Part shown: positions 23,419 through 44,170 of the stretch, one piece after another | Position numbering within the stretch: position 1 is the first letter of the stretch | Layout: every line of letters starts with the position of its first letter | DNA from: Streptomyces diastatochromogenes | GTDB taxonomy: Bacteria > Actinomycetota > Actinomycetes > Streptomycetales > Streptomycetaceae | Reading direction: 5' to 3' | Assembly: GCA_001550305.1 (NCBI GenBank) | Contig: LRTP01000342.1 | Coordinates: 1 to 44,271 of the forward strand | DNA: 44,271 nucleotides | Made by a program: the position numbers and the translations under genes | Notes under the pieces: generated by a model | What the model saw: the letters and a program-made list of their open reading frames with translations, nothing else | Told to the model about the DNA's origin: nothing | The model's database searches: none

Positions 23419-23490
23419 TCAGGCGGGCTCGCTGGGACCACCGTGCGGACCGTGCACACCGGCGTTGTTGATCAGGACGTCGATCACGCC
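23419..23490 (-). pseudogene. Fragment of an SDR gene on the opposite strand
   Basis: The minus strand encodes GVIDVLINNAGVHGPHGGPS EPA then a stop. IDVLINNAG is the diagnostic SDR motif. Nothing before or after belongs to an SDR, so only about 24 codons survive. It is the third SDR-derived sequence within 5 kb that is not an intact gene or is next to one. Confidence 0.7.
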
Positions 23491-23518
23491 TCCGTCGCCG
23501 CAGCGGCGACGGAGGCGT
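23486..23518. terminator. Perfect 15-bp hairpin
   Basis: ACGCCTCCGTCGCCG, a 3-nt loop CAG, then the exact complement CGGCGACGGAGGCGT. Very stable and lying after the SDR pair and before the permease. No T-run follows, as is common for streptomycete terminators, so it could act in either direction. Confidence 0.65.
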
Positions 23519-38648: not shown

Positions 38649-39929
38649 GTGAGCGATGTCGACGTTCTCTCCCCACGTGACGTACCCCTGGGCGGCCCGC
38701 GCGCGATGACCGTGCGGCGCACGCTGCCGCAGCGCGCGCGGACCCTGATCGGAGCATGGTGCTTCGCCGACCACTACGGTCCCGACGACATCGCCGAGAC
38801 GGGCGGCATGGACGTCGCCCCGCATCCGCACACCGGACTGCAGACGGTGAGCTGGCTGTTCAGCGGGGAGATCGAGCACCGCGACAGCCTCGGCAGCCAC
38901 GCGTACGTACGGCCCGGCGAGCTGAACCTCATGACGGGCGGGCACGGCATCAGCCACTCGGAGGTGTCCACCCCGGGCACCACGGTCCTGCACGGCGTCC
39001 AGCTGTGGGTGGCGCTGCCCGATGAGCACCGGCACGCCGAGCGGGACTTCCAGCACTACGTCCCCACGCCCCTGCGGATCGACGGGGCCGAGATCAGGGT
39101 CTTCCTGGGCTCCCTCGCCGGTCAGGAGTCCCCGGTGCGCACCTTCACACCCCTGCTCGGCGCCGAGATCGTCCTCGAGCCGCGTGCGACGGTCACGCTA
39201 GCCGTGGACCCCGACTTCGAGCACGGGCTGCTCGTCGACCACGGAGACGTCCGGCTGGCCGACACCCTGCTGCGTCCGGCGGAGCTGGGCTATGCCCAGG
39301 CCGGAACCGCAGCTCTGACGTTGGTGAACGAGTCGGACGACCCGGCTCGCACCGTACTGCTCGGCGGAACCCCGTTCGAGGAGGAGATCGTCATGTGGTG
39401 GAACTTCATCGGCCGTAGCCACGAGGACATCGTCCGCGCCCGGGAGGACTGGGCGAACGCCTCCGATCGCTTCGGCGCCGTCGAGGGGTACCCGGGGGAC
39501 CGCCTTCCCGCTCCCGTTCTTCCGCACGCCACCATCTCGCCGCGCGGCAACCCGCCGCGTCGCCGATCCGCATCCGAAAGGCACACCATGACCGAGTCGT
39601 CTCCCGCCGCTCCGACCGTCGAGCGGAACGACGCCAGGCATCGCTACGAAATCCTGGTCGACGGCAAGCGCGCCGGCCTCACCGCCTACCGCGACCGCGG
39701 TGAACAGCGCGTCTTCTTCCACACGGAAGTCGACGACGCCTTCGCCGGGCAGGGCCTGGCCGCGCGGTTGGTCGAGTACGCGCTCACCGACGTGCGCGCC
39801 CTCGGTATGCGGATAGTGCCCGTGTGCCCCTACGTCGCGAAATTCCTGAAGAAGCACGACGAGTTCGCCGACATCACCGACCCCGTGACCCCCGACGTCC
39901 AGGCGTGGCTGAACACGCAACTGGGCTGA
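38649..39929 (+). CDS. Pirin-GNAT fusion protein
   Basis: A 426-residue two-part protein. Residues about 1-310 are a pirin-type bicupin: GAWCFADHYGPDD, MDVAPHPHTGLQTVSWLFSG, EIEHRDSLGS and MTGGHGISHSEVS provide the metal-binding His/His/His/Glu pattern, and MWWNFIGRSHEDIVRAREDW closes the pirin C-terminal cupin. From about residue 314 (MTESSPAAPTVERNDARHRY) a YjdJ-type GNAT domain follows: EILVDGKRAGLTAYRDRGEQ, AFAGQGLAARLVEYAL and VPVCPYVAKFLKKHDEF. An internal ATG at 39588 has GAAAGG upstream, as if the GNAT gene once stood alone. Pirins act as quercetinases or redox-linked regulators. GTG 38649 is preceded by GGAAGG. Confidence 0.88.
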   Translation: MSDVDVLSPRDVPLGGPRAMTVRRTLPQRARTLIGAWCFADHYGPDDIAETGGMDVAPHPHTGLQTVSWLFSGEIEHRDSLGSHAYVRPGELNLMTGGHGISHSEVSTPGTTVLHGVQLWVALPDEHRHAERDFQHYVPTPLRIDGAEIRVFLGSLAGQESPVRTFTPLLGAEIVLEPRATVTLAVDPDFEHGLLVDHGDVRLADTLLRPAELGYAQAGTAALTLVNESDDPARTVLLGGTPFEEEIVMWWNFIGRSHEDIVRAREDWANASDRFGAVEGYPGDRLPAPVLPHATISPRGNPPRRRSASERHTMTESSPAAPTVERNDARHRYEILVDGKRAGLTAYRDRGEQRVFFHTEVDDAFAGQGLAARLVEYALTDVRALGMRIVPVCPYVAKFLKKHDEFADITDPVTPDVQAWLNTQLG

Positions 39930-40545: not shown

Positions 40546-42162
40546 TCAGCCCATCGGCGCGTGCTCGGGTGAGGGCGTCGGCGCGCCGGCCCATCCGTGC
40601 AGGGCGGCTTCGAGGCCGGTGGTGGCGGCGACGTCGGTGGTGTCGGAGGCCCAGGCGACCACCCCGTCGGGGCGTACCAAGACCCCGGTCGGCGTCGCGT
40701 GGTCGTCGGTCACGATGCGCACTCGCCCGGCCCAGGCCGCGGCGAGGCGGGCGAAGGTGCCGTCCGGAGTGCGGTCGAGCAGCAGGAACCCGCCGCCGTG
40801 ACCGTGGTCGGACAGACGGGAACCGTCCGTCAGCCACAGGTCGGGGACGTAGCGGCCGACCAGCGGGTGGTCGCCGGGAAGGTCTATGCGCTGCGTGACG
40901 CCGGAGATCTTCTTGACCGCGTAGGTCGTGCCGTCCCGGGTGCTCAGCAGATCGGCGACGACCTCCCGGAGCGCGGCCGACTTGGCGTCCCCGCGCATCA
41001 CCCCGATCTGGGCCCGCGTCCAGTCCAGCACCCAGGCGCCCAGGGGACGGCGCTCGGCGTCGTAGGTGTCGAGCAGCCCTTCGGGTGCCCACCCGGCGAC
41101 CACGGCACCGAGCTTCCAACCGAGGTTCATCGCGTCGCCGATCCCGAGATTGAGCCCCTGGCCGCCGAACGGTGAGTGCACGTGCGCGGCATCGCCGGCC
41201 AGAAGCACCCGTCCCGACCGGTAGGTCGCGGCCTGGCGGGCGTTGTCCGTCCAGCGGGTCGCGGCGCCGCGCAGCGCGGTCACTGTGACGTCGGAGCCCG
41301 AGACCCGGCGCAGACTGGCCTGCAACTCCTCAAGAGTGACCGGCGCCATGGGGGTCCCCCCGCGCGAGCGAAGCCGAGCATGGCGGAGGTCGGCGGGAGC
41401 GCCGCCGAACTCCACGGTGACCACCCGTCCGGGCTGTGGCCCGTAGCGGTATGCCCCCCGGGTCGACCACACCCATCCGTTCGCGAGCTTCTCCGGGTCG
41501 GCGATGTCGGCGACCGCCAGGTGTCCGGTGAGTTCGGGGTCGGTGCCGGGGAAGTCGATGTCCGCGAGGCGGCGTACGGTGCTGCGCCCGCCGTCGCACC
41601 CGACCAGCCACCCGGTGCGCACCGTGCCGGCCGTGGTGCCGACGAGCACGCCGTCGCCGGTGTCTTCGAGCGCGGTGACCTCCACCCCGCGACGCACCGG
41701 TACGCCGAGTCGCGCGACATGCTCGGCCAGCAGCTCCTCCAGCTCACGCTGCGGCACCATCCTCGCCCCGTCGACCGCGGCGTGCGCGGCGAGGTCGGCA
41801 TCGGACCAGTCCACGAGGCCGGCGTCGAGGACCATCCCCGCGAAATGCCCGGTGAACCGTGACGCGTGCGCTCGCCGACCACCTCCGGGCCGCTGGTCGT
41901 CGGCCATGGGAGCGAACGACCCCACCCGCTCGAGCATCTCTCGCTGCACGCTCTCGGCGGCGGGCAGCAGGCCGCGGCGGTCGAGCGCCTCGGCCGTCGG
42001 CACGTTGATCGACCCCGCCTTCATCGCCTCGGACGGCTCGGCCAGTCGCTCGAGCACCTGCACCGTCGCCCCGGAGAGCGCCAGCTCCGCGGCGAGCACG
42101 AGGCCCACCGGCCCGGCTCCGACCACGGTCACGTCCACATCCTGGTCCACATCGATATTCAC
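40546..42162 (-). CDS. FAD-dependent class A monooxygenase
   Basis: A 538-residue flavoprotein hydroxylase of the PHBH fold. The dinucleotide-binding motif is VTVVGAGPVGLVLAAELALS (residues about 9-28). The DG motif is GWLVGCDGGRSTVRRLADID, and the GD motif is GRVLLAGDAAHVHSPFGGQG followed by LNLGIGDAMNLGWKLG. The C-terminal third (FLLLDRTPDGTFARLA, RVRIVTDDHATPTGVLVRPD) is a thioredoxin-like domain as in polyketide and rifampicin hydroxylases. It hydroxylates an aromatic compound with NAD(P)H and oxygen; a role in drug inactivation or tailoring is possible. The GTG at 42162 sits inside the operator and matches the predicted transcription start, so the message is probably leaderless. Divergent TetR. 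Confidence 0.93.
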   Translation of the reverse strand: MNIDVDQDVDVTVVGAGPVGLVLAAELALSGATVQVLERLAEPSEAMKAGSINVPTAEALDRRGLLPAAESVQREMLERVGSFAPMADDQRPGGGRRAHASRFTGHFAGMVLDAGLVDWSDADLAAHAAVDGARMVPQRELEELLAEHVARLGVPVRRGVEVTALEDTGDGVLVGTTAGTVRTGWLVGCDGGRSTVRRLADIDFPGTDPELTGHLAVADIADPEKLANGWVWSTRGAYRYGPQPGRVVTVEFGGAPADLRHARLRSRGGTPMAPVTLEELQASLRRVSGSDVTVTALRGAATRWTDNARQAATYRSGRVLLAGDAAHVHSPFGGQGLNLGIGDAMNLGWKLGAVVAGWAPEGLLDTYDAERRPLGAWVLDWTRAQIGVMRGDAKSAALREVVADLLSTRDGTTYAVKKISGVTQRIDLPGDHPLVGRYVPDLWLTDGSRLSDHGHGGGFLLLDRTPDGTFARLAAAWAGRVRIVTDDHATPTGVLVRPDGVVAWASDTTDVAATTGLEAALHGWAGAPTPSPEHAPMG

Positions 42163-42194
42163 GAACAGCGTTCTATATACGAACGCTGTTCGTG
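42160..42194. promoter_or_regulatory. Perfect 14-bp inverted-repeat operator with leaderless promoters
   Basis: CACGAACAGCGTTC (42160-42173) and its exact complement (42181-42194) flank a 7-bp spacer TATATAC. On the minus strand TTGACA (42198-42193), a 17-nt spacer and TAGAAC (42175-42170) form a promoter that would start transcription about at the monooxygenase GTG (42162). On the plus strand TATAGT at 42201-42206 is 6 nt before the TetR GTG. The repeat covers the core of one promoter and the -35 region of the other. Confidence 0.85.
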
Positions 42195-42212
42195 TCAAGT
42201 TATAGTGGTCGG

Positions 42213-42935
42213 GTGAACCCGAGAGAACGACGCGCGGCGCGCCACCAACTGCCGAATCCCGAGGTCGAAGCCGCCCCCAGGCAGCGGCGCCGCAAGGCCC
42301 CGATCACCGTGGACCAGGTCGTCGACACCGCGTTGGGCGTGATCGCCACAGAGGGCTACGAGGCCCTGACCATGCGCCGACTGGCCGGCGCGCTCGACAC
42401 CGGACCCGCCTCGCTCTACGCCCACGTGGTCAACAAGGCCGACCTCGACGAACTGCTCATCGCGCGGCTGTGCGCCGAGCTCGTACCACCCCAGCCCGAC
42501 CCCGCAGCCTGGCGGGAGCAGATCCGCAGCGTGTGCACCCAGTTGCGCGACCAGTACCTGAAGTACCCCGGAATCTCCCGCGCCGCGCTCGCCATGGCCC
42601 CCACGGACCTCGAGACCCTGCGCGTCAGCGAAGGAATGCTGGCGATCCTCATCGCCGGCGGCGTCGCCCCGCAGGCCGCCGCCTGGGCCATCGACGCCCT
42701 CTTGCTGTACGTGGCCGCGTACTGTCTGGAGATCTCCATCCTGGATCAGCGCAAGGTCCACAACGAGGCGGACTGGGTGGTCGACACCGACGAACTCCAG
42801 CGCCGACTGACCGCACTGCCTGCCGAGGTCTTCCCTCACACCACCCGCTACGCGGCCGAGCTCACCGCCGGTGCGGGCCACGACCGGTTCGACTTCACGC
42901 TCGCCCTGATGATCGACGGGCTCTCCCACCGCTAG
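42213..42935 (+). CDS. TetR-family repressor (tetracycline-repressor-like C-terminus)
   Basis: A 240-residue regulator. A basic N-terminal tail (RERRAARHQLPNPEVEAAP RQRRRK) precedes the helix-turn-helix TVDQVVDTALGVIATEGYEA, LTMRRLAGALDTGPASLYAH, VVNKADLDELLIARL. The GPASLYAHV recognition segment and the long C-terminal helical domain (LAMAPTDLETLRVSEGMLAI, AAAWAIDALLLYVAAYCLEI) are characteristic of the class with a TetR_C-type ligand pocket. The GTG at 42213 follows a -10 TATAGT by 6 nt, hence leaderless. It is divergent from the flavin monooxygenase and shares its operator, so it should repress both until the monooxygenase substrate or a related drug binds. Confidence 0.92.
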   Translation: MNPRERRAARHQLPNPEVEAAPRQRRRKAPITVDQVVDTALGVIATEGYEALTMRRLAGALDTGPASLYAHVVNKADLDELLIARLCAELVPPQPDPAAWREQIRSVCTQLRDQYLKYPGISRAALAMAPTDLETLRVSEGMLAILIAGGVAPQAAAWAIDALLLYVAAYCLEISILDQRKVHNEADWVVDTDELQRRLTALPAEVFPHTTRYAAELTAGAGHDRFDFTLALMIDGLSHR

Positions 42936-44170
42936 CCAGACGTCACCGTGGTGTGACTGGAGGTCAGTTCACGGTTGCCGGGCGAAGCGCGGGTACGACC
43001 GTGAAGGCCGTCCACGACGCGCGTTCGACGACCAGGCGTCGCAGCATGCGTACCTGACGGGGGGGTGTTCCAGCCGAGTACGCCGACCACCCTCCCTTGG
43101 TGACCGTAGGCGGCCGCGAAGCAGCCGTCGACCGGGTCGCCGTGGACGATCCGCACATCCGCGTCGGGTGGGAAGACGCCGTACGCCTGGATCCTGGTGT
43201 CGTACTGGTCCGTCCAGAAGTAGGGTACGGGGGCGAACGGTTTGGCGTCGCCGAGCAGGTTGCCGGCCGCGGCCATGGCCTGTTCGGTGGCGTTCATGCG
43301 GTGTTCCAGCCGCATGCGGGTGCCGAAGTGCGGGTTGTGCCAGGAGGCGACGTCTCCGGCGGCGTAGATGCCGGGTGCGGCCTGGCACAGCGCGTCGCAC
43401 TCCACACCGCCCCGCAGTCGCAGGCTCGAGCCGGTCAGCCAGCGGGTCGCGGGCGTGGAGCCGAGGGCCAGGACGACGACGTCGGCCGACAGCGTGGTGC
43501 CGTCGCCGAGTTCCACCCCGGTCACCCGGCCGCCCGCTCCGCGCAGCCGGCGCACCGGTGTCCCGCAGCGCAGGCGCGTGCCGTGGTCGCGGTGCAGGTC
43601 GGCGACGAGCGCGCCGATACGGTCGCCGAACGGGCGCCGTACGGGGACGGGCTCCGGCTCGACCACGGTCACCTCCAAGCCCATGGTCCGGGCTGCCGCG
43701 GCGACTTCGGTGCCGAGGAACCCGGCGCCGACCACGACCACCCGGGGCCCGGTGAGCAGCGCGGCGCGTAGGCCGAGAGCGTCGTCGAGCGTGCGCAGGA
43801 CGTGGACTCCGTCGAGATCACTGTCGGGAAGGTGCCGGGGGGTCACACCGGTAGCGATGATCAGACCGTCGAAGCCGATGCTCTCGTCGTTGCCGAGGCG
43901 CACTTGGCCGCCCTCCACGTCGAGGGCGGTGGCGCGCTGTCCGAATCGCAGGTCGGCTTCGAGCCGTGCCAGGTCCTGCAGGGAGCGCAGGGTGGCCCGT
44001 TCGGGCTTCCAGGCGCCGGTGAGGATCTGCTTGGACAGCGGCGGCCGGTCGTACGGCGGATGCGGCTCCTCGCCGATCAGGGTGAGGTCGCCGCCCCAGC
44101 CTCGGCGGCGGAGGGCTTCGGCCGCGGTCAGGCCTGCGGCCGAGGCTCCGACGACGACGATCCGCTTCAC
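42932..44170 (-). CDS. FAD-dependent ferredoxin/rubredoxin reductase-like protein, frameshifted C-terminus
   Basis: A flavoprotein of the BphA4/ferredoxin reductase type. The FAD motif is VVVGASAAGLTAAEALRRRG (residues about 4-23), PPYDRPPLSKQIL and LIIATGVTPRHLP follow, and the NADH motif is VVVVGAGFLGTEVAAAARTM. GIYAAGDVASW is the second FAD site; RLEHRMNATEQAMAAAGNLL and PYFWTDQYDTRIQAYG form the C-terminal domain. At a run of seven G (43059-43065 on the plus strand) the frame leaves the family pattern. Removing one base restores PRQVRMLRRLVVERASWTAF, ending at 42964, so the last 40 residues as read are spurious. It could deliver electrons to a P450 or dioxygenase. The GTG start overlaps the stop of an upstream gene. 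Confidence 0.88.
   Translation of the reverse strand: MKRIVVVGASAAGLTAAEALRRRGWGGDLTLIGEEPHPPYDRPPLSKQILTGAWKPERATLRSLQDLARLEADLRFGQRATALDVEGGQVRLGNDESIGFDGLIIATGVTPRHLPDSDLDGVHVLRTLDDALGLRAALLTGPRVVVVGAGFLGTEVAAAARTMGLEVTVVEPEPVPVRRPFGDRIGALVADLHRDHGTRLRCGTPVRRLRGAGGRVTGVELGDGTTLSADVVVLALGSTPATRWLTGSSLRLRGGVECDALCQAAPGIYAAGDVASWHNPHFGTRMRLEHRMNATEQAMAAAGNLLGDAKPFAPVPYFWTDQYDTRIQAYGVFPPDADVRIVHGDPVDGCFAAAYGHQGRVVGVLGWNTPPSGTHAATPGRRTRVVDGLHGRTRASPGNRELTSSHTTVTSG

Follow-up and report, generated by a model that had tools for sequence, protein, structure and literature searches.

Two conserved palindromic sites between divergent TetR-family and flavin monooxygenase genes of Streptomyces: a probable repressor switch with predicted leaderless start codons

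Between the divergent genes for a FAD-dependent aromatic-type monooxygenase and a TetR-family protein of Streptomyces diastatochromogenes lie two palindromic sites, GAAC-N3-GTTC, whose sequence and spacing recur in related loci (Table 1; the window is the whole stretch of DNA that was analysed, 44,271 nucleotides of contig LRTP01000342.1). On the strength of this comparison we consider it highly likely that the locus is a divergent, autoregulated TetR/monooxygenase repressor switch, in which two TetR dimers would bind, a ligand would release them and the enzyme would be made from a leaderless mRNA. The presence of two sites, their spacing, the coupled start codons and the link between site and type of TetR protein are each supported by the comparison, and the locus is real, conserved and probably functional.

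Genes of the divergent locus

A profile search placed FAD_binding_3 (E=5.2e-71) and Rng_hyd_C (E=9.5e-22) domains in the monooxygenase, and its scores are those of a group A aromatic flavoprotein monooxygenase (240.1 bits for PF01494, cut-off 22; 77.8 bits for the aromatic-ring hydroxylase C-terminal domain, cut-off 27.5). Assignment as a rifampin monooxygenase was rejected, with 345.4 bits against a cut-off of 800 for NF033145 and 239.7 against 950 for NF000343; the nearest solved chains are the polyketide oxygenase/hydroxylase 4k2x and rifampin monooxygenases. The divergent gene encodes a member of the TetR family (PF00440, 30.9 bits, cut-off 24; PF02909, 56.8 bits, cut-off 21), and the tetracycline repressor TetR itself was rejected as an assignment (NF010319, 56.9 bits against a curated cut-off of 265). 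Its closest solved relative is ActR (sequence E=1.2e-33), to which, among the matches listed, the predicted fold aligned with Z 20.8, 37% identity and an rmsd of 4.5 over 201 residues; the best of the structure models had a pLDDT of 84.5 and the other four 56.8-64.9. The TetR protein of S. olivochromogenes is 95% identical to that of the window. With 50 bp between the two start codons and two palindromic sites in the gap, the locus has the layout of the divergent TetR/target class, for which PMC3511530 describes a gap of <200 bp.

An initial annotation, made from the sequence alone, had called the locus a self-contained cassette. This description fits, as the monooxygenase is present at 58 of the 64 loci of TetR subfamily A and the reductase next to tetR in the window was seen again near TetR at just 2 of the 109 loci, within flanks limited to 1.5-3 kb. 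The latter, a ferredoxin-reductase-type gene (42932-44170, minus strand), runs towards tetR and shares 4 bp with the end of that gene. On the other side of the monooxygenase, 38649-39929 (plus strand) forms one 426-aa frame with Pirin, Pirin_C and a GNAT-type acetyltransferase domain, which may be a fused gene or two genes sharing an open frame.

Table 1. Features of the divergent locus (positions in the window; a dot marks features without a strand)
Feature	Position	Strand	Remarks
FAD-dependent aromatic-type monooxygenase gene, 538 aa	40546..42162	-	GTG start at operator edge; FAD_binding_3, Rng_hyd_C
Perfect 14-7-14 inverted repeat	42160..42194	.	holds both operator sites and the outer CAC/GTG flanks
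Operator site 1, GAACAGCGTTC	42163..42173	.	with +1 at 42162, would cover -1 to -11 of the monooxygenase promoter; exact pair in 51/56 loci
Predicted monooxygenase promoter	42170..42198	-	TTGACA 42198-42193, N17, TAGAAC 42175-42170
Operator site 2, GAACGCTGTTC	42181..42191	.	between monooxygenase -35 and -10 (-19 to -29 with +1 at 42162); -22 to -32 of tetR promoter with +1 at 42213; exact pair in 51/56 loci
Predicted tetR -10 box TATAGT	42201..42206	+	no clear -35; 6 nt before GTG 42213-42215
TetR-family repressor gene, 240 aa	42213..42935	+	GTG start, predicted leaderless; TetR_C_1 E=2.9e-15, TetR_N E=2.3e-07

Two palindromic sites and their probable regulator

The intergenic region holds a perfect inverted repeat whose arms, CACGAACAGCGTTC (42160-42173) and GAACGCTGTTCGTG (42181-42194), are complementary at 14/14 positions around a 7-nt spacer, TATATAC (42174-42180), just as the initial annotation had described them. 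When windows were simulated with a first-order Markov chain and perfect inverted repeats with arms of at least 14 and spacers of at most 20 were counted, 60 such windows yielded one repeat in total and the real window three; repeats of this kind rarely arise by chance. The two other long perfect repeats of the window lie at 23486-23518 (16-bp arms, 1-nt spacer) and 225-258 (14-bp arms, 6-nt spacer), and both are G+C-rich with no obvious T run. Each arm of the intergenic repeat is itself palindromic, of the form GAAC-N3-GTTC, and the centres of the two palindromes are 18 bp apart.

Loci with a related TetR gene were taken from named genomes (the best 80 of 126 loci) and from genomes of the genus (295 searched, matches in 120, 30 loci used). 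From the 111 loci with a TetR match we removed 47 below 69.5% identity (subfamily B), seven duplicates and one locus cut at a contig end, which left 56 distinct loci, the window included, with TetR proteins 70-100% identical. The exact arrangement of GAAC-N3-GTTC, 7 nt and GAAC-N3-GTTC is present in 51 of these 56, the exceptions being L019, L031, L036, L047 and L048. The search fixed the four-base halves and left the flanks free; among the 51 loci the bases of CAC before site 1 are kept in 50, 51 and 51, those of TA after it in 50 and 51, and each base of GTCAAG near site 2 in at least 49, and the N3 centres come in nine kinds on the left and twelve on the right. The DNA upstream of tetR holds 15.02 sites per kb (223 in 14,850 bp), compared to 0.017 per kb (9 in 542,942 bp) for the remainder of these loci. 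In subfamily B, where the TetR proteins are 52-68% identical, 31 of 43 distinct upstream regions hold two to four copies of the site, mostly 22, 21 or 18 bp apart. Some relatives of the window TetR adjoin genes other than a monooxygenase. At L036 and L048, whose TetR proteins are close relatives, tetR is preceded by three differently spaced sites and adjoins no monooxygenase, and the divergent gene of L036 encodes a zinc-binding dehydrogenase. At L019 (~3001) the operator region and the 5' part of the enzyme gene are absent, owing to a deletion or an assembly effect, and the TetR gene directly adjoins an internal point of the monooxygenase frame.

Variant sites of the form GA[AT]CT[TA]AG[AT]TC occur in 7 of the 111 loci. 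TIRR and AHIV appear in the helix-turn-helix of these seven and of no others, so that two site types, GAAC-N3-GTTC and the GAACTTAG type, go with two helix-turn-helix types. This joint change suggests that the site is tied to the TetR protein, and since the seven loci are related it may represent a single event. The own genome of the window contains one exact pair, with no mismatch, and allowing up to two mismatches revealed four further pair-like places (one for the control). A regulon of single sites in this genome was considered and rejected: CGAACNNNGTTCG is found at 11 places in the 12.3 Mb and the reversed control at 2, and a rough base-composition estimate for CGAACNNNGTTCG also gives ~11. 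Across the genus sample the pair is present in 32 of 295 genomes and the reversed control in 1 of 295. All 14 genomes with a TetR match of at least 79% identity fall within these 32, six more hold subfamily-B matches, and 11 of the remaining 12 had a locus to inspect, with a Pfam TetR gene beside the pair in 10/11 and an MFS transporter in 9/11; the TetR and MFS transporter of the eleventh locus, L142, were recognised by eye, and the frame tested as a transporter in L148 matched no family. The transporters beside the pairs suggest that the site array serves exporter pairs too. Arrays of three sites in exact 18-bp steps lie between TetR and transporter genes in L135, L138, L145, L147, L148 and L123, and L143 (1501-1565) has four sites so arranged. 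In L144 (1501-1543) the operator pair and TTGACA-N17-TAGAAC are found upstream of a monooxygenase relative with its GTG 13 nt beyond the pair; the divergent neighbour there is a tannase/feruloyl-esterase-type gene and no TetR, a subfamily-B TetR being encoded elsewhere in that genome.

The initial annotation had taken the repeat for one inverted-repeat operator, and a single TetR complex reading the whole 14-7-14 repeat would suit its perfection in the window, the conserved outer CAC...GTG flanks and the 35-bp operator described for MabTetRx (PMC6143652). We regard a single 35-bp operator as quite improbable and rejected it because the N3 centres vary freely: perfect 14-bp complementarity of the arms occurs in 5 of 51 relatives, where 6.35 would be expected for independent centres. 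In addition, relatives hold three or four copies of GAAC-N3-GTTC at spacings of 18, 20, 21, 22 and 28 bp. Judged by this comparison, the conserved unit is two tandem GAAC-N3-GTTC sites and the 14-bp complementarity is incidental; the perfect repeat of the window would be a coincidence, since the two palindromic sites there happen to have complementary N3 centres. The same complementarity in the window could instead reflect an RNA hairpin, either a terminator or a leader structure, but we found no compensating arm changes in 51 loci, no T run and no terminator in a scan of 41900-42500, and from the predicted starts neither mRNA would carry both arms; the probability of this explanation, which we rejected, is close to nil. 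It is also highly unlikely that the sites serve another regulator and that the adjacent TetR is a bystander. Such a bystander would be compatible with the identical pair beside less closely related TetR genes that are accompanied by MFS transporters and with the pair of L144, but it is at odds with the co-variation of helix-turn-helix and site, with the fact that the own genome has a single exact pair and with the TetR genes found beside the pair outside subfamilies A and B (by Pfam, and in L142 by eye).

Promoters and predicted leaderless starts

The TTGACA-N17-TAGAAC element that the initial annotation had seen aimed at the monooxygenase GTG (42162-42160, minus strand) is present, with 7 nt between TAGAAC and the GTG, and both TAGAAC and the TGAC core of the -35 are kept in 50 of 51 loci. 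The proposed TATAGT ahead of the tetR GTG is likewise found, and an in-frame start follows the corresponding TANNNT by 6 nt in 48 and by 7 nt in 3 of the 51 loci, including two loci in which the box is shifted relative to site 2; an SD-like sequence precedes the tetR start in 2 of 51. A sigma-70 consensus scan of 41900-42500 called no promoter, because TAGAAC is without the final T and tetR is without a good -35, and the promoter assignments, which are predictions, depend on conservation. Downstream of the operator the FAD motif is present in 48 of 51 loci, the exceptions being L039, L085 and L078, in which the divergent enzyme is a luciferase-like monooxygenase. The GTG at the operator edge, which lies in the conserved operator flank as had been claimed, is in frame with this motif in 47 of the 48 loci, and in the 48th an ATG three bases on takes its place, so that an edge start is in frame in 48/48. 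The linker between operator and FAD motif has twelve lengths, from 24 to 96 nt, every one a multiple of three, as expected if translation starts at the operator edge; slippage of GTG-GAC units would equally produce multiples of three. In L096, L017 and L011 the N-terminal linker lengthens by GTG/ATG-GAC/AAC codon-pair repeats, which results in many in-frame start codons in a row.

Translation of the monooxygenase could alternatively begin ~30 nt inside, behind a short leader with an AGGA-type ribosome site, leaving only tetR leaderless. The FAD motif begins soon after such a start, and 24 of 48 loci, among them the window, have an AGGA-type sequence ahead of a start codon that lies further inside in the same frame. 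However, the other 24 are without it, L043 has no in-frame start beyond +6, and the frame is held from the operator edge in all 48 loci despite the twelve linker lengths. In addition, among the 23 loci with a 36-nt linker, single-base codon differences are synonymous in 156/726 cases in frame compared to 88/690 and 129/756 in the other frames, an excess that points the same way, although this coding signal is weak by itself. We consider an internal start rather unlikely. The placing of both starts for leaderless mRNAs, as initially proposed, is indirectly supported by the tetR box-to-start distance and by the monooxygenase frame, and we predict that both GTG codons are leaderless starts. In S. 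coelicolor, 21% of primary transcripts are leaderless (5' end <9 nt from the start codon), TetR regulators are prominent among them and the -10 is TANNNT; the leaderless mRNAs favour AUG (76.4%), which counts against leaderless expression of two genes that both start with GTG (PMC4895711).

Proposed mechanism and known systems

In the repressor switch that we favour, the TetR protein would bind the two GAAC-N3-GTTC sites as dimers, 18 bp apart. Site 1 would span the -10 to +1 region of the monooxygenase promoter and abut its start codon, and site 2, between the -35 and -10 of that promoter, would also lie in the tetR -35 region, such that the monooxygenase promoter would be locked twice and the tetR promoter once; the enzyme may in consequence be repressed tightly, and tetR would repress itself less strongly. 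A small molecule, perhaps an aromatic metabolite, would free the promoters from the repressor, and the monooxygenase, made from an mRNA with its 5' end at or beside the GTG, would then oxidise the inducer or a relative of it. TetR-family switches paired with an enzyme usually work in this way: a ligand releases the repressor, and the enzyme oxidises the ligand or a related compound. Binding and repression, the double versus single lock, the ligand and the substrate are inferences. The divergent switch first proposed is backed by the comparison, whereas the block to elongation proposed with them is unneeded, because sites at -1 to -11 and -19 to -29 would suffice to stop RNA polymerase binding. 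Drug- or metabolite-inducible control is plausible, since the closest solved relative is ActR and the closest enzymes are aromatic polyketide hydroxylases and rifampin monooxygenases. We also entertain, tentatively and with more doubt than belief, that the leaderless start codon and the outer bases of the repressor site evolved as one element, that two TetR dimers in fixed 18-bp phasing hold transcription and translation start together, and that this phased array, at times of three or four sites, is reused for flavin monooxygenases and MFS exporters, with site and helix-turn-helix changing jointly. If true, the ActR-like proteins concerned would form a subfamily characterised by an operator that is portable and acts as a double lock.

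Inducible switches of this kind are known, and the locus adds a new member; the surprise is limited because operator core and gene arrangement have close precedents. In SCO7222/SCO7223 of S. coelicolor a TetR repressor is divergent from a monooxygenase gene, and PMC3511530 describes three footprinted TGGAACGNCGTTCCA repeats, three shifts and 72-fold repression. That palindrome is GAAC-N3-GTTC and both loci have several intergenic copies, but SCO7222/SCO7223 has three sites in 146 bp whereas the window has two in 50 bp, and SCO7222, which is 2hxo according to the structure title, is only distantly related to the window TetR (phmmer E=1.2e-08; 22% identity). The 2hxo structure was not among the best 50 fold matches listed for the window TetR and was present in a further comparison. 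BioQ, the actinobacterial biotin repressor with the predicted site TGAAC-N3-GTTCA (PMC3398298), is also a TetR-family protein of related sequence (E=1.5e-09) and fold (Z 18.7, rmsd 2.1 over 178, 28% identity), but controls biotin genes and no monooxygenase. ActR/ActA of S. coelicolor is a divergent pair with several intergenic palindromes as well, described as weaker ones with CCACCGTT (PMC3511530), although ActR controls an MFS exporter and the window TetR adjoins a monooxygenase. MabTetRx/MabTetX of Mycobacterium abscessus, described as a tetracycline-induced TetR repressor of a FAD monooxygenase with a 35-bp operator (PMC6143652), forms a same-direction operon, in contrast to the divergent pair of the window. 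A literature text search, in which subscription papers mostly lie outside the scope, gave no paper on this TetR/monooxygenase pair that we recognised among the matches listed. A further search with five 11-mers and the core pattern, which would miss spaced-out sites such as those in PMC3511530, gave no TetR operator study among its matches; the 11-mer match in PMC3398298 lies in a bioY primer.

With this locus, actinomycetes offer a small inducible promoter pair that is well conserved and whose operator the comparison resolves down to the base, and the protein family permits direct comparison of repressor and operator specificity. The identity of the ligand would reveal compounds that these bacteria sense and oxidise. 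The ligands of ActR and the relatives of the enzyme provide a weak lead towards aromatic compounds, and the position of the L144 pair between a monooxygenase and a tannase/feruloyl-esterase-type gene is a weak hint at plant phenolics.
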